From positions 1 to 5,650 of the forward strand of contig JALGZO010000579.1 of assembly GCA_025774865.1 (NCBI GenBank): DNA of 5,650 nt, given 5' to 3'. Under the pieces are notes generated by a model. It did not search any database. It was not told the DNA's origin and was given only the letters and a program-made list of their open reading frames with translations. Position numbers and translations under genes: made by a program. Source of the stretch: a bacterium (lineage in GTDB: Bacteria > ARS69). Shown here one piece after another: positions 2 to 5,650 of this stretch (within the stretch, counting starts at the first letter, position 1; every line of letters starts with the position of its first letter).

Positions 2-439
2 TATCTGTTCCTCCAGCTGATCAACTTCGTGCACGGACAGCTCTGGCGGCATTTCTCGGGAGGCTGGGCGCTCTGGTACGTCACGGAGATCGTCGGGTTC
101 GTGGCCCTGCCGATGATCTTGTTCCTCGTCGGGACCGCCCGCCGCCACGGTGGACTGATCCGCACCGCGTCGGTGCTCACGTTGCTCGGAATCGTAATCA
201 ACCGTCTCAACGTGTCGGTCATCGCGTTCAAGTGGTACGAAGCGAGCCACTACGTTCCGAACTGGATGGAAATCGTCGTCACCGGCGCGATCATCAGCGC
301 CGAAATCTGGGTCTTCCGCTGGGTCGTCCGTCGTATGCCGGTGGTGAGCTCGTCACCGGCGTGGGCGATCCAGAACCGCGTGCGAGAGCTCGTACCCGCA
401 GACGGCAGCGCCAGCGGGAGCAACGGAGGAGAACGCTGA
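2..439 (+). CDS. NrfD/HybB-like membrane subunit, C-terminal part
   Basis: The reading frame is open from the left edge, so the start lies outside the window; 145 residues and the TGA stop are visible. The visible part is an integral membrane protein with the end of one helix and then three clear hydrophobic segments (around ALWYVTEIVGFVALPMILF, ASVLTLLGIVINRLNVSVIA and IVVTGAIISAEIWVF). The pattern NRLNVS followed about 17 residues later by YVPNWMEI matches the last helices of the NrfD/PsrC/HybB family, which carries electrons between the quinone pool and a periplasmic iron-sulfur or cytochrome partner. Family knowledge supports a quinol-oxidising or quinone-reducing membrane anchor; the partner subunits would be upstream, outside the window. 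A polar tail of about 30 residues (SSSPAWAIQNRVRELV...) follows the last helix. The stop lies 2 nt before the next gene, so the two are very likely co-translated. I prefer HybB-like over DmsC-like, but the exact subfamily cannot be fixed from this end. Confidence 0.85.
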   Translation, partial: YLFLQLINFVHGQLWRHFSGGWALWYVTEIVGFVALPMILFLVGTARRHGGLIRTASVLTLLGIVINRLNVSVIAFKWYEASHYVPNWMEIVVTGAIISAEIWVFRWVVRRMPVVSSSPAWAIQNRVRELVPADGSASGSNGGER

Positions 440-441
440 TC

Positions 442-1179
442 ATGGACTTCCTGCCGACCAAAGGTGTCGAATACCTGATCATCCTGGCCTACCTGGCGGT
501 CCTCGCGCCGTTCTGGTGGCTCCTGTCCCGGCTCGGGCCGCGTCCGAGCCCGGCGCGCGCGGCGAGGCAGCCGGCGTCGCGCGGCGCAGGCTCGCCGTGG
601 TTCGCGCTGCCCGAGGGGTTCCACTTTCACCGCGGGCACACCTGGGTTCAGCCCGAGAAGGACGGAGTGATGCGCGTGGGGATGGACGACTTCGCTCAGC
701 GGCTGCTCGGAGCTCCAGACGCTTTGTTGCTGCCGGCCGTCGGTACGCGCCTGAGCGGCGGCGACCCCGGCTGGCGGACGCAGGTCGACGGGCACACGGT
801 CGATGTTCTGTCCCCGCTCGAAGGCGTGGTCACGGAGGTCAACCCGGAGGTCCAGAGCGCGCCCGAGAAGATCTGCGAAGACCCTTACGGCAGCGGCTGG
901 CTCTTGAAGGTGCGCACCGAGAAACCCCGCCGCGTTCTCAAGAATCTGATGCCCTACGAGCTCGCTCGCGACTGGATGGCCGAGACGACCCAACTCGTGA
1001 GCAGGATGGCCGGACCCGAGCTCGGCGCCGTCCTTCAGGACGGTGGGCGCCCCGTGTCCGGTTTCGTTCGGCCGCTCGGTGGCGAGCGGTGGGCCGACCT
1101 GGCCGCGGAGCTCCTGCTCACGGCGGAGCCTGACTCTTCGGAGACTCCTCCCGACGGACCGAAGGACAGCTTGGAATAG
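442..1179 (+). CDS. membrane-anchored GcvH-like protein without lipoyl lysine
   Basis: The protein has 245 residues from ATG 442, chosen because AGGAG at 427-431 sits 10 nt upstream and the upstream gene stops 2 nt before it; the frame is open further upstream but overlaps the NrfD-like gene. Residues 9-31 form one transmembrane helix, followed by an Arg-rich linker (34-47), which by the positive-inside rule suggests a cytoplasmic soluble domain. Residues about 55-160 resemble glycine cleavage H protein: GHTWV (65-69), RVGMDDFAQ (78-86), SPLEGVVTEVN (124-134) and DPYGSGWLLKV (147-157). In GcvH the lipoylated Lys sits in ESVKA about 12 residues before the conserved Gly of the P-x-x-G turn; here that place reads VDGHTVDV with Gly or Asp, so lipoylation appears impossible. 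About 90 further residues (LARDWMAETTQL, ELGAVLQDGGRPVSGF) are absent from true GcvH. Similar proteins, usually annotated as glycine cleavage protein H, sit beside NrfD-type respiratory subunits in other bacteria. The role is therefore probably structural or regulatory in that complex, not glycine cleavage; this is inference. Confidence 0.85.
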   Translation: MDFLPTKGVEYLIILAYLAVLAPFWWLLSRLGPRPSPARAARQPASRGAGSPWFALPEGFHFHRGHTWVQPEKDGVMRVGMDDFAQRLLGAPDALLLPAVGTRLSGGDPGWRTQVDGHTVDVLSPLEGVVTEVNPEVQSAPEKICEDPYGSGWLLKVRTEKPRRVLKNLMPYELARDWMAETTQLVSRMAGPELGAVLQDGGRPVSGFVRPLGGERWADLAAELLLTAEPDSSETPPDGPKDSLE

Positions 1180-1185
1180 GCACGT

Positions 1186-2862
1186 TCAGCGGATCCGCAC
1201 CATCTTCCGCGCGTCGACCTGCGAGCCGATGGTCATGGAGTAGTGATAGACGCCGGCGGGTAGCCGCTCGGGCTGCCACGCGTACCGGTGCGTCCCCGCC
1301 GCGAGCCGATCGTCGACGATGGTCGCCACGCGTCGGCCGAGCACGTCGTAGACGGCGAGGCGCACCTCGGCCGACCGCTCCAGCGAGAACGACAGCATAG
1401 TCCGCTCGCGAAACGGGTTCGGGAAGGCGGAGCGAAGCACGTACGCCGTCGGCAGGTCGACCGGGTCGACGGCGGTCCAGGGGTCGCATTCGATCGGATC
1501 CCCCGGGGAAAGGTCCCGGCCGTCGAAGCCGGGAAAGTCGGGCGAGTAACGGTGCGCCCGGAAGACCTGGTTACGATTCGGGACAGCTCCCTGGCACAGC
1601 GGACCCGTGTTGTTCACGGGATTGATGTAGATCCAGACGATGTCCTCGGCGGGGGTCACTTCGAAGATGCGTCCCCCCCGGCCCTGGCAGATGAGCGTAT
1701 TGCCGTTCGGAAGACGCTGGGCCCCGGAGATCCGCGCGGAATAGAAGCTCTCGGGAGGGTCCGCGGTGTAGATCCACGATTGGGCCTCGGGATCGTGCGG
1801 GGTCCCGGAGGGCGGTAATGGGTAGTCACCGTTCGCATCGACCGTCGTCGTGATCTCCTCGACGGTCGAATACTCCCCTTCCGGGCGTTCGAGCCCGTTG
1901 TTGAAGACCAGGATGTTCCCGGCGCCGGCGAGCCCGTCCGGGATCCAGTGAGAGTCGTGCAGCCGGTAGAACTTCTGGTCGGTGGAGGTTCCCGCGCGGT
2001 GGGCGGCCGGGTTTCCCCATCGATAGAGGAGGTCGCCTCCGCGGCCTCGGACTCCGCCGGTATGGCCCGCCGCCTCGGCCGTCGTCGTGCTGTGATCGAT
2101 GATCCAGAACTCGTCGAAGCGATTCACCGAGACCACGATCTGATCGAGTTCTTCGTCGTAGTCGATGGCGTTGAAGTGAAGCCAGTCGGGGTGGTCGTCC
2201 TGGATGAAGTTCAGGTCGATGAGCTCCGGATGATCCGCGACGACCCCGAAGTTCGCCTTCGTGGAGTCGAAGTCCTGGATCAGATGATCCCAGGCGTGCC
2301 ACTCCCAGACGATGTTTCCGCCGCCGGCGCCGACCGGCTCCACCTCCACGATGTGGTCCGGCCAGAGCACGCCCTCTGGGATGGTCGCCGGATCGCGCCC
2401 GGCCGCCACCGCCTCCGCCATCGTCTTGAGCTCCCACGCGATCAGGAGGACATTTCCGTTCGGCATCGGCTCGACGTCGTGGTGCTGGCGCACGAGGCTG
2501 TCGGAGTAGAGGAACTCCCACTGAAGGTCGCCATCCCAGTCCCAGCGCTGGATGAGACCGGCGTCGCCGCCGGCGATGAACACGTCGTTGCCGCCGGGGT
2601 CCGCCGGCCGGAGCAGATCACCGTTCTCCAGGAGGTAGGCCACGTTGCCGGGCTCCCAGAGGGTCGTCCAGGAGTGGACGAGCAACCCGTTCACGTCGAT
2701 CAGATAGGTGTCCGTGTAGTTCATCGGAGAGAACAACGTGTACCCGACATAGGTGCCGGGGTCGTTGAGAATCAGGCCGAGCGTGTCCGGCGGCTGCGCG
2801 CGCAGAGTCCCGAACGTCGTCAGCACACCGAGGACGGCTCCCATCCACCTCTTTGCGGCCAT
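1186..2862 (-). CDS. secreted arylsulfotransferase-family protein with C-terminal sorting domain
   Basis: The protein has 558 residues from ATG 2862-2860. The frame is open to 2937, but this start is preferred because MAAKRWMGAVLGVLTTFGTLRA is a good signal peptide (cleavage near Ala22) and GGAGAAAGG lies about 8 nt upstream. Residues about 30-470 form a repeat-rich propeller of the arylsulfotransferase (ASST) type: DTYLIDVNGLLVHSW (51-65), LENGDLLR (78-85), RQHHDVEPMPNGNVLL (125-140), DWLHFNAIDYDEE (226-238) and LHDSHWIPDG with NILVFNNG (301-323). Family members move sulfate between phenolic compounds through a phosphohistidine-like sulfo-His intermediate. His128, His229 and His302/His305 are the conserved candidates here, but which is catalytic cannot be decided without alignment, and FNNG replaces the more usual FDNG. 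Residues 478-558 (PNPF, AVYDVLGRRV, LPAGVYHYSM, KMVRIR) are a type IX-like sorting or FlgD-type Ig domain, so the protein is probably secreted or surface-attached. Substrate is unknown. Its stop is 6 nt from the stop of the convergent plus-strand gene. Confidence 0.87.
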   Translation of the reverse strand: MAAKRWMGAVLGVLTTFGTLRAQPPDTLGLILNDPGTYVGYTLFSPMNYTDTYLIDVNGLLVHSWTTLWEPGNVAYLLENGDLLRPADPGGNDVFIAGGDAGLIQRWDWDGDLQWEFLYSDSLVRQHHDVEPMPNGNVLLIAWELKTMAEAVAAGRDPATIPEGVLWPDHIVEVEPVGAGGGNIVWEWHAWDHLIQDFDSTKANFGVVADHPELIDLNFIQDDHPDWLHFNAIDYDEELDQIVVSVNRFDEFWIIDHSTTTAEAAGHTGGVRGRGGDLLYRWGNPAAHRAGTSTDQKFYRLHDSHWIPDGLAGAGNILVFNNGLERPEGEYSTVEEITTTVDANGDYPLPPSGTPHDPEAQSWIYTADPPESFYSARISGAQRLPNGNTLICQGRGGRIFEVTPAEDIVWIYINPVNNTGPLCQGAVPNRNQVFRAHRYSPDFPGFDGRDLSPGDPIECDPWTAVDPVDLPTAYVLRSAFPNPFRERTMLSFSLERSAEVRLAVYDVLGRRVATIVDDRLAAGTHRYAWQPERLPAGVYHYSMTIGSQVDARKMVRIR

Positions 2863-2880
2863 GACTCCGCCCTTTCTCCG

Positions 2881-2892
2881 CAGAGGCCTCTG
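2881..2892. repeat. perfect 12-bp palindrome upstream of the arylsulfotransferase-like gene
   Basis: CAGAGGCCTCTG is a perfect inverted repeat without a spacer, 18 bp upstream of the ATG at 2862 and just upstream of its GGAGAAAGG ribosome binding site. The flanking bases do not extend the symmetry. It could be an operator for a dimeric repressor or only a chance palindrome in GC-rich DNA; no promoter elements are convincing around it. Confidence 0.3.
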
Positions 2893-2938
2893 GCGACGGG
2901 GGTCGTCGAGTACCCGCGCCGCCTGGGGACCGCCCATC

Positions 2939-3513: not shown

Positions 3514-3519
3514 CCTCCC
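3514..3519 (-). promoter_or_regulatory. ribosome binding site overlapping upstream stop codon
   Basis: GGGAGG on the minus strand begins within the TAG stop (3521-3519) of the propeller gene and sits 4 nt before the GTG start at 3509. It decides the GTG start of the 146-residue protein and implies translational coupling, so damage to the upstream frame could lower expression of the small protein. Confidence 0.6.
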
Positions 3520-4415
3520 TACTTGCGAACGATGATCTTCCGCGTCGTCCGTTCCGCCCCTGCCTGAAGAACCGCCAGGTACACGCCGCTGGAGACATCA
3601 TCGGTGAACCACGGCGTGGTCCGGATGACGCCGTCGCCCCGGCTGAAGTCCTCCAGGTCGGCGACCAACCGACCCCGGACGTCGTAGATCCGGAGTGACA
3701 CGGCGGCGGCGCTGCGGGCCGCGTACCTCAGAAGAGTACGGTCCCTCGCCGGGTTCGGCCACGGTTCGTCCAGCATCAGGTTGAGCGGCTGCGCCACGGC
3801 CACATCGCCCGCGTCCGTCACGGTGTTGCTGATGCTCACTTCCCAGCCGCCGCGACCATGCGTTCCGGCTACGAGCTTCTGCTGACTGCTCTTGATTTCG
3901 ACGTCGCAGACGACCACGTTCGGCAACCCCGTCCCGTAGGGCGTCCAGTTCGTCCCGCTGTTCGTCGACAGCCAGACTCCCAGGTCCGTCCCGATGTACC
4001 ACTCGGAGGTGGACAAGGACAGCGGATTCACTGCGATCCCGTTCACCGGGATGTTCGGCAGGTCACCGGTAATGTTCGTCCAGCTGCTCCCGCCGTCCGT
4101 CGTCTGCGCGATCTTGGCCGAGCTATTGAAGGTCGAGAACGTTGCGAACGCCGTGCTCGGATCCGTCGGGTGAGCGATGATCTTCGTGTCGTTCCCGACC
4201 GGGAACCCGAACGCCGCCACGGTCGGGAAGGTGGTCCCGCCGTCCGTGCTTCGTCGGACGGTCAGATCGCGGATCGTCCACACGATGTCGGGATCCGCAG
4301 GGCTGACCGAGATCCAGGTGGCCCGGCTCGATGACGTGTTGACCCACTGGGCGCCGCCGTTCGTCGTCCGGAAGATGCCGCTGCCATCGGTCTGGTCTTG
4401 ATCGACGGGCGTCAA
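3519..4415 (-). pseudogene. Asp-box propeller protein, C-terminal segment with sorting domain (out of frame with its N-terminus)
   Basis: This frame gives up to 298 residues. The only in-frame start candidate is TTG 4415-4413, with no convincing ribosome binding site and no signal peptide, so it is most likely the continuation of the segment at 4414-4791 after a frame break. Counting from that TTG, four Asp-box motifs of the BNR/sortilin type are present: TTNGGAQW (17-24), STDGGTTF (56-63), TTDGGSSW (105-112) and STNSGTNW (150-157), spaced 39-49 residues as propeller blades are. GTGLPNVVVCDVEI and AGTHGRGGWEV (about 161-193) are the typical last blade of such proteins. Residues about 213-298 (PNPARDRTLL, LRIYDVRGRLVADL, SSGVYLAVLQ, RKIIVRK) are a complete type IX-like sorting domain. 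Four or five blades is short for the family, which usually has one or two seven-bladed propellers. The function would be an extracellular binding or sialidase-fold protein; no catalytic residues can be assigned. Confidence 0.75.
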
Positions 4416-4791
4416 TCCGCCCCGCGAAGTTCGTGGGACCCAGCGAGAACCACGAGCTCCGCGGCTGGGGACCCATCGCCCGCTCGATTTCCCGCTTCTG
4501 CTCCCAGGCCCTCCACCGCGCTCCCGGCTCCGGCAGCCGGCCTTCGTCGATACGGTTCCCGTAGAACCACTTCAAGCGGTTGTAGGGCTTCCACCCACTG
4601 CCGGGGGTCGTCTTGAGGGCGGGGTTCCGGTCGAAGAACTCGTCCAATTCCTGGAAAAGGCCCTCGGGCGTCGTCGCTTGCCCGGCGATCGTCGGAGCGG
4701 CGATGGCACTCGGCAGCCAGGAGGCCCAGACGATGGTCAGGGCGGCAACGATGCACTTCGACACACTCAGACGGGCCCTCGTGGGGAGCAT
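4414..4791 (-). pseudogene. Asp-box propeller protein, N-terminal segment
   Basis: From ATG 4791-4789 (GAGG at 4801-4798, spacing 6 nt) this frame encodes about 126 convincing residues. Residues 1-31 are a signal peptide (RAR, then a hydrophobic core and AIA before Ala32). Residues 66-101 (GWKPYNRLKWFYGNR, EQKREI) resemble the N-terminal region that precedes the propeller in secreted BNR/VPS10-like proteins, and WFSLGPTNFAGRI (114-126) is the usual first strand of the propeller. Beyond about 4414 this frame turns into Arg-rich nonsense (RRSRPDRWQRHLPDDERRR) although it stays open to 4123, while the propeller sequence continues in the neighbouring frame. Omitting one base near the CCCC run at 4420-4423 would join the two. 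In intact relatives the GRI strand is followed by roughly 20-25 residues before the first Asp box; here far fewer remain, which suggests a deletion as well as a shift. Confidence 0.72.
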
Positions 4792-4905: not shown

Positions 4906-4933
4906 TTGAATCCATGCGTCCAAGTGGTACTAT
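4906..4933 (+). promoter_or_regulatory. possible sigma70-like promoter for the beta-helix gene
   Basis: TTGAAT (4906-4911) and TACTAT (4928-4933) are separated by 16 bp and each match four of six consensus bases. This is the most AT-rich patch of the 191-bp divergent intergenic region (4792-4982). Transcription would begin near 4940, leaving a leader of about 40 nt that starts just before the hairpin at 4947-4960. The promoter of the divergent minus-strand gene must lie in the same region but shows no clear boxes. Confidence 0.35.
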
Positions 4934-4946
4934 GCATGAATCGGGG

Positions 4947-4970
4947 GTCAGGAATCTGACACCTTCTCAG
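4947..4970 (+). promoter_or_regulatory. leader hairpin next to the ribosome binding site, with an alternative fold
   Basis: GTCAG (4947-4951) and CTGAC (4956-4960) form a perfect 5-bp stem with the loop GAAT. The CTGA of the right arm can instead pair with TCAG (4967-4970), which contains the first two bases of the AGGAGG ribosome binding site. The two pairings exclude one another. The stems are short, so this is structurally possible but unproven as a control element. Confidence 0.25.
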
Positions 4971-4974
4971 GAGG
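4969..4974 (+). promoter_or_regulatory. strong ribosome binding site fixing a GTG start
   Basis: AGGAGG lies 8 nt before GTG 4983 and decides the start of the beta-helix gene. An in-frame GTG at 4974-4976 overlaps this element and is therefore not usable with it. Confidence 0.7.
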
Positions 4975-4982
4975 TGCGCGCC

Positions 4983-5650
4983 GTGCGCTCCCTGCTCCGC
5001 TCCGTCGCACTTCTCTCGGTCGTCGCGGTTTCACCCGCAGCGGCATTCACGTGGAACGTCCCCGGCGACGCTCCGACGATCGCGGCGGCCGTCGATTCGG
5101 CGGCGGCCGGCGACACTGTTCTCATCGCCTGCGGCACCTACTTCGAGCACGACATCCCCCTCTCGCGCGAGATCACGATCCGGAGCACGACCGGTGCCCC
5201 CGACTGCGTCACGATCGACGCCCTGGGTCTGGGCCGCGTCTTCATCAGCGACATCCCGGAAGGAGACGCCCGGATCGAGGGCATCACCATCAAGGGTGGC
5301 TCGGCCGTGAGCCCGGGTCCGATCGCCGGCTGGGGAGGCGGCATGCTGTTCTTTGGCGGCTCGCCCACCCTCGTTCGCTGCGATTTCCAGGGGAACGGAG
5401 CCACGGTTGGCGGCGCCCTCGCGCTGACGGGGCACGGCGAATCCACCGTCATCGACTGCACGTTCCACGACAACATCGCAGAGCACGGAGCGGGCGTGCT
5501 TTTCCTGAGCGCCACCGCGACGGTGAGCGGCTGCACGATCTACGCAAACTCCGCGGACTCGCTCGGGGGCGGCGCTTACGCGAGTCTGTCCTTCGTCACA
5601 ATGAGCGACTGCACGTTCCACGGGAACTCGGCGCCCGAGGGGGGCGGCGC
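4983..5650 (+). CDS. secreted right-handed parallel beta-helix protein, N-terminal part
   Basis: The gene starts at GTG 4983 and is open to the right edge, so 222 codons are visible and the end is missing. Residues 1-21 (VRSLLRSVALLSVVAVSPAAA, initiator read as Met) are a signal peptide with cleavage near Ala21. Residues 24-57 (WNVPGDAPTIAAAV, AGDTVLIACGTYFEHD) are the N-terminal cap common to pectin-lyase-fold proteins of this kind, followed by ITIRSTTGAPDCVTIDA and the first coils (ARIEGITIKGG). After that come regular coils of 25-26 residues, each with Cys then a hydrophobic strand and a GG turn: CDFQGNGATVGGA, CTFHDNIAEHGAG, CTIYANSADSLGGG and CTFHGNSAPEGGG. This is the PbH1 / polymorphic-membrane-protein-like repeat. 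Proteins of this type are surface or extracellular and often end in the same sorting domain seen on the minus-strand genes; that end is outside the window. No polysaccharide-lyase catalytic residues are evident, so an adhesive or structural role is as likely as an enzymatic one. Confidence 0.85.
   Translation, partial: MRSLLRSVALLSVVAVSPAAAFTWNVPGDAPTIAAAVDSAAAGDTVLIACGTYFEHDIPLSREITIRSTTGAPDCVTIDALGLGRVFISDIPEGDARIEGITIKGGSAVSPGPIAGWGGGMLFFGGSPTLVRCDFQGNGATVGGALALTGHGESTVIDCTFHDNIAEHGAGVLFLSATATVSGCTIYANSADSLGGGAYASLSFVTMSDCTFHGNSAPEGGG
5453..5622 (+). repeat. direct repeat from beta-helix coils
   Basis: CGACTGCACGTTCCACG occurs at 5453-5469 and again at 5606-5622, identical over 17 nt and 153 nt (51 codons, two coils) apart. 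Both encode DCTFH. The coil between them has the related CTIYAN at the same position but differs in DNA sequence. This suggests growth of the gene by duplication of two-coil units or strong constraint on this turn. Confidence 0.6.

Follow-up and report, generated by a model that had tools for sequence, protein, structure and literature searches.

Membrane-anchored GcvH-like proteins that lack the lipoyl-lysine recur beside Hmc-like FeS-NrfD modules

Positions 442 to 1,179 of the window (the whole stretch of DNA analysed, 5,650 nucleotides) encode a membrane-anchored protein that retains the H-protein fold of the glycine cleavage system without its lipoyl-lysine, and relatives of this protein recur next to genes for an FeS protein and an NrfD-type membrane protein. 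We give about an even chance to the reading that these non-lipoylated H-protein-fold proteins serve an Hmc-like FeS-NrfD quinone-oxidoreductase module as dedicated partners; most likely they are structural or regulatory partners at its cytoplasmic face. The relevant features of the window are as follows:

2 to 439, plus strand: C-terminal 145 residues of an HmcC/HybB-type NrfD membrane subunit (NCBIfam NF045714 HmcC, 106 bits for the fragment)
442 to 1,179, plus strand: non-lipoylatable, membrane-anchored GcvH-like protein with a C-terminal DGG extension (245 residues)
451 to 534, plus strand: predicted N-terminal transmembrane helix, residues 4-31, followed by an Arg-rich flank (AF2 model; flank charges in the family)
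625 to 972, plus strand: GCV_H domain, residues 62-177 (Pfam PF01597, 73.7 bits; 1htp, Z 19.4)
790 to 792, plus strand: codon of Gly117, which occupies the lipoyl-lysine column and lies in the hairpin turn that joins strands 109-115 and 118-123
1,039 to 1,047, plus strand: D200-G201-G202, a motif of the C-terminal extension common to the family (alignments A1 and A3)

The GCV_H profile of Pfam scored the window protein well above its cut-off of 22.2 bits. An AlphaFold model computed with 46 family members as input (mean pLDDT 86.8, pTM 0.75) comprises a long helix, the H-protein barrel, and C-terminal helices around the DGG loop. In structural comparison, the barrel matched the H-protein 1htp with an rmsd of 1.4 over 131 residues. 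These results bear out the earlier note, which had described a GcvH framework preceded by a transmembrane helix. The same note had placed Gly or Asp at the lipoyl-lysine position. The lysine is indeed absent, and alignments with H-proteins of the PDB put Gly117, not Asp, opposite it (VESTKSVSD in H-proteins, QVDGHTVD here); in the model, Gly117 lies in the turn that would hold the lipoyl-lysine. The ExxK context is missing as well, and lipoylation of the window protein is ruled out by this column. The predicted extension, with LQDGGRPVSG at residues 198-207, is present and comprises about 60-68 residues, not 90, beyond the H-fold, since the Pfam match ends at residue 177 and the structural match at 186. 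D200 and G201 are invariant in alignments A1 and A3, and the DGG motif as a whole is almost invariant.

Several known GcvH-fold proteins were compared. The window protein shares fold and framework with GcvH, but has neither lipoyl-lysine nor ExxK, carries a membrane anchor and the DGG extension, and stays below the NCBIfam gcvH cut-offs (64 bits against 115.85); moreover, the cluster copies have no gcvT/gcvP neighbours. LbpA of the sHdr pathway is likewise a GcvH-like protein serving respiration. However, LbpA is lipoylated and encoded beside Hdr-like genes, whereas the present proteins have lost the lysine and adjoin NrfD and FeS genes; a positive example of the LbpA type (L086) keeps the lipoylatable lysine in LQSSKWVGK, which the window protein lacks. 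GcvH-L (5a35) and the NCBIfam families 'not_gcvH' and GcvH_rel_desulf also represent the fold outside glycine cleavage, but the window protein scores far below their cut-offs and has other neighbours. It is thus neither a functional GcvH nor a lipoate-binding LbpA.

The ATG of the window protein lies 2 nt past the TGA (437-439) of the NrfD frame, as the earlier note had stated. The 5' part of this NrfD gene is on contig C67 (L008 1-960, minus strand), which overlaps the start of the window by 136 bp with one mismatch. The cluster therefore reads, in order, GcvH-like 1 with a Cys motif, GcvH-like 2, a Tat-type FeS protein, NrfD, and GcvH-like 3, which is the window protein. Divergent from this operon are genes for a c-heme sensor histidine kinase, an NtrC-type sigma-54 regulator, and an archaemetzincin. 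The pair of a Tat-type FeS protein followed by an NrfD-family membrane protein (Fer4_11 and PF03916 matches) corresponds to an Hmc-type module. The FeS protein scored 335 bits with the HmcB profile (equivalog cut-off 420) and a full-length NrfD homologue 383 bits with the HmcC profile (cut-off 550), so that the two are relatives of HmcB and HmcC rather than Hmc itself. Beside these scores, multiheme cytochromes in many of the GcvH-like clusters are shared with the Hmc complex (HmcA/B/C) and with the NrfD modules of sulfate reducers; the clusters described here differ in adding GcvH-like partners, a heme kinase, a sigma-54 regulator, and an archaemetzincin. No catalytic subunit was found beside the FeS-NrfD genes of this cluster. 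The same genome contains a second cluster on contig C334 and a separate true GcvH on contig C549, with gcvT and gcvP nearby. GcvH-like variants such as GcvH-like 1 (L008 2907-3887, minus strand; alignment A5) have a conserved N-terminal CxWMxAGxxSYKLCx5CxxC with four invariant Cys. This motif has no match in Pfam and is possibly a metal or FeS site; in the AlphaFold model of the Cys-motif protein the core is confident and the N-terminal Cys region has a pLDDT of about 50.

The lysine column was readable in 112 GcvH-domain proteins, among them those of 20 control regions that came for the most part from the same genomes; Lys is present in 27 proteins and absent from 85. Of the 85 copies without Lys, 73 have an NrfD or FeS gene within 5 kb, versus 2 of the 27 with Lys (Fisher 8e-14, indicative only, since rows within one cluster are dependent and share phylogeny). 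Counted separately, NrfD was found within this distance of 71, FeS of 67, and the kinase of 61 of the non-Lys copies. The distribution of gcvT/gcvP, taken over the same 5 kb, is the reverse (0/85 without Lys, 16/27 with Lys). Among the cassette-type copies, 85 of 87 lack Lys, and the column is occupied by G, D, S, N, E, H, and others; the copies at L009 and L057, which are the two Lys copies near NrfD/FeS, carry a Lys at the aligned column outside an ExxK context, and that at L057 also has a likely frameshift. The 12 non-Lys copies away from NrfD/FeS are in part at contig ends, while those at L055 and L075 are truly solitary. The recurrence beside NrfD-type modules, often with multiheme cytochromes, the departure from GcvH at the lysine column, and the separation from gcvT/gcvP had all been anticipated in the earlier note, and these counts agree with it. 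The L075 gene (8957-9691, minus strand) is a lone DGG-type gene, distant from NrfD, with its own sigma-54-like site. Proteins at L049, L050, L069, and L095 form another GcvH-like group with the lysine motif KW[IL]G or KYIG (ESGKWLGK and similar), and the L049 member adjoins a CCG/Fer4 (Hdr-like) protein. A 646-residue ORF at L057 that appeared to be an NrfD-GcvH fusion was set aside: its C-terminus is lost to an apparent frameshift, no second genome has the fusion, and with the Arg-rich NrfD C-terminus the GcvH domain would end up on the wrong side.

When 386 genomes, sampled across families, were scanned with a profile of the GcvH-like family, extended proteins turned up in about 30, as counted by us from listed scores and coverage. 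A wide scan of named genomes added 10 loci, all from MAGs and none from a cultured host, including Gemmatimonadales, Candidatus Benthicola (Gemmatimonadota), a Bacteroidetes, a Riflebacteria, and a Myxococcales. Each cluster has two to three GcvH-like genes, and two forms were distinguished. Form I combines GcvH-like proteins, FeS, NrfD, heme kinase, NtrC-type regulator, and archaemetzincin. Form II has the order FeS, NrfD, multiheme cytochrome (9-13 CxxCH), heme kinase, receiver-GcvH, and TM-receiver-GcvH; the phosphorylation-site residues of the receiver are kept in 11 of 12 receiver-GcvH proteins. Multiheme cytochromes occur inside many form I clusters too. Among the multiheme cytochromes of the clusters, one is weakly HmcA-like. 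FeS is immediately upstream of NrfD in 31/31 clusters, GcvH immediately downstream of NrfD in 14, and several GcvH-like copies are co-directional with NrfD with gaps of 3-18 nt or overlaps. The association is one-sided. When the 26 best-scoring NrfD hits of the subfamily were inspected, about 7 had no GcvH-like gene listed nearby, indicating that the GcvH-like partner is not essential to NrfD. At G356:C35, an NrfD gene (91541-92692) lies about 3 kb from an archaemetzincin (M54, 95880-96257) with no listed GcvH-like gene, and this may be a cluster without GcvH. Where three GcvH-like genes stand in tandem (L058 8986-9693, L072 9604-10323, L073 8991-9704), the third always lacks DGG, which suggests a division of labour.

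The cluster kinase has CxxCH in a PF21563-like periplasmic domain together with HAMP-HisKA-HATPase, as expected of a c-heme sensor kinase. PF21563 matched 24 of 25 kinase sensor members. The sensor matches the c-heme Cache/PAS sensors GSU0582 and GSU0935 of Geobacter (3b42 and 3b47) and keeps their second motif, CX4CH, but it is fused here to a histidine kinase of NrfD clusters, not to a chemotaxis receptor. Heme Cache domains fused to signalling modules have been reported to act as NO sensors in a 2026 preprint (PMC12889525). In the regions before the first GcvH-like gene, sigma-54 -24/-12 sites scoring at least 13 of 14 were found in 16 of 36 cases, against 0.26 expected from first-order shuffles; at a score of at least 12, the numbers were 24 of 36 and 2.5. 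The site of the present operon, TGGTGC-N5-TTGC (L008 ~2741-2727, minus strand), scores 12 of 14 and is weak taken alone.

The neighbouring archaemetzincin scored 152.7 bits with profile NF033823 (cut-off 145) and contains the M54 zinc motif HExxHxxxxxHCx4CxM (HELGHTYNLVHCHDDRCVM), which is intact in 21 of the 23 cluster copies. Genome lists read by eye from the family profile scan show M54 in 20 of the 23 genomes that encode DGG-type GcvH-like proteins and in 46 of the remaining 363 (Fisher 4e-14); none of the 5 genomes that have only the DGG-less receiver-GcvH forms contains it (p 6e-4). M54 and the DGG segment are connected by no more than this correlation, which tracks the split between the cluster forms and may therefore reflect shared ancestry.

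The location of the GcvH domain was deduced from three observations. Among TM-anchored copies, the more positive flank is on the GcvH side in 35 and on the other side in 11, a count that includes the present ORF in a mis-joined form. The TM-receiver-GcvH proteins must meet the kinase, which places the receiver in the cytoplasm. The FeS protein has an N-terminal twin-arginine signal (NRRCFFK) and should thus be periplasmic. Taken together, these observations put the GcvH domain opposite the electron-carrying subunit, most likely at the cytoplasmic face; the helix of the window protein would have an N-out/C-in orientation. Such a location would argue against a part in the electron path. The earlier note had read the protein as a dedicated accessory or structural subunit of a quinone-linked respiratory complex. 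This reading is supported in part: the family is non-lipoylatable, has no link with gcvT/gcvP, and is associated with NrfD/FeS genes. What that note did not mention is that clusters contain GcvH-like genes in twos or threes and a set of regulatory genes (heme sensor kinase, sigma-54 regulator, archaemetzincin), that receiver-GcvH fusions exist, and that the GcvH domain is probably cytoplasmic.

In the mechanism that we propose, two or three GcvH-like proteins per cluster, most of them anchored by a single N-terminal helix that leaves the GcvH domain in the cytoplasm, would act as scaffold or regulatory subunits at the cytoplasmic side of NrfD. The sensor kinase would sense redox state or NO through its periplasmic c-heme domain. 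In form I it would signal to the NtrC-type regulator, which would turn on the GcvH-FeS-NrfD-GcvH operon through sigma-54 promoters; in form II it would signal to the receiver-GcvH proteins. Gene order and co-occurrence suggest that the GcvH-like proteins dock on NrfD, and they may thereby control the FeS-NrfD complex. Gene neighbourhood does not tell a subunit of the complex apart from a protein that regulates the same operon. A further and rather doubtful proposal is that the GcvH fold is a phosphorylation-controlled output domain: the heme kinase would phosphorylate receiver-GcvH, which, bound at the cytoplasmic face of NrfD, would switch quinone turnover or proton movement, and the DGG-type proteins would do the same in the sigma-54/archaemetzincin form and be reset by proteolysis.

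It is a serious possibility, if an unlikely one, that the GcvH-like proteins are not subunits of the NrfD complex but signalling adaptors that bind the kinase and/or the regulator and report or tune the signal. The kinase lies near 61 of the 85 non-Lys copies, the GcvH domain is the output part of the receiver proteins, and the DGG-type clusters at L079 and L080 have kinase, regulator, and M54 with no NrfD found on the stretch. Lipoyl domains are also known to dock on GHKL kinases, and PDK-L2 complexes, in which a lipoyl-type domain controls a GHKL-family kinase, are among the structural neighbours; this is a functional analogy only. However, NrfD (71/85) and FeS (67/85) are as constant as the kinase, several copies are closely spaced and co-directional with NrfD, and no kinase accompanies NrfD on the stretches L074 and L042, the latter a short contig. 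We think it improbable that the proteins are assembly or maturation factors for FeS-NrfD which the archaemetzincin processes or turns over, possibly at DGG. The distribution of M54 among DGG-type and receiver-GcvH-only genomes and its largely intact zinc motif would fit such a role, but shared ancestry may explain a correlation that follows the cluster forms.

A mobile arm carrying lipoate or another cofactor and exchanging electrons with the FeS subunit is highly improbable. The H-protein fold is retained, and the sHdr pathway, with its lipoate-binding proteins, is an example of GcvH-like proteins at work in respiration (PMC6067878), but the near-complete loss of Lys in cassette-type copies largely refutes this role, and the GcvH domain probably lies on the side of the membrane opposite the Tat-exported FeS subunit. 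Loss of the functional lysine could also indicate a decaying gcvH paralogue beside NrfD by chance. DGG is conserved, however, the genes occur in two to three copies per cluster with the same neighbours in several phyla, and an intact gcvH stands beside gcvT/gcvP in the same genome; this conservation and recurrence refute decay, which can be set aside almost entirely.

Each part of the cluster belongs to a known family, and the combination appears undescribed in the literature searched. Within that open-access literature, no paper was found on the combined gene set, on NrfD together with GcvH, or on archaemetzincin together with a histidine kinase. Scoring as 'glycine cleavage system protein H', the GcvH-like genes would pass for a sign of glycine metabolism, and this annotation is wrong for them. 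What they mark instead is a respiratory module, conserved and redox-regulated, of little-studied bacteria; behind the annotation may lie a new type of partner for respiratory complexes. In the cluster, the GcvH fold has a role that does not involve lipoate, and bacterial archaemetzincin, a protease of unknown role, gains a genomic context. The cluster also offers a setting in which to test how a two-component system might act on a respiratory complex through a protein-fold adaptor.

The remainder of the window encodes predicted secreted proteins and an arylsulfotransferase-like protein. The latter (ASST; 1186-2937, minus strand), with a secretion-system C-terminal sorting tail, is convergent with the GcvH-like gene. 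A sortilin/BNR-type secreted protein (3519-4791, minus strand) appears to be divided between the frames 4123-4791 and 3519-4415, the likely cause being a frameshift or assembly error near 4400, and a secreted right-handed beta-helix protein (4914-5648, plus strand) is cut by the end of the window.
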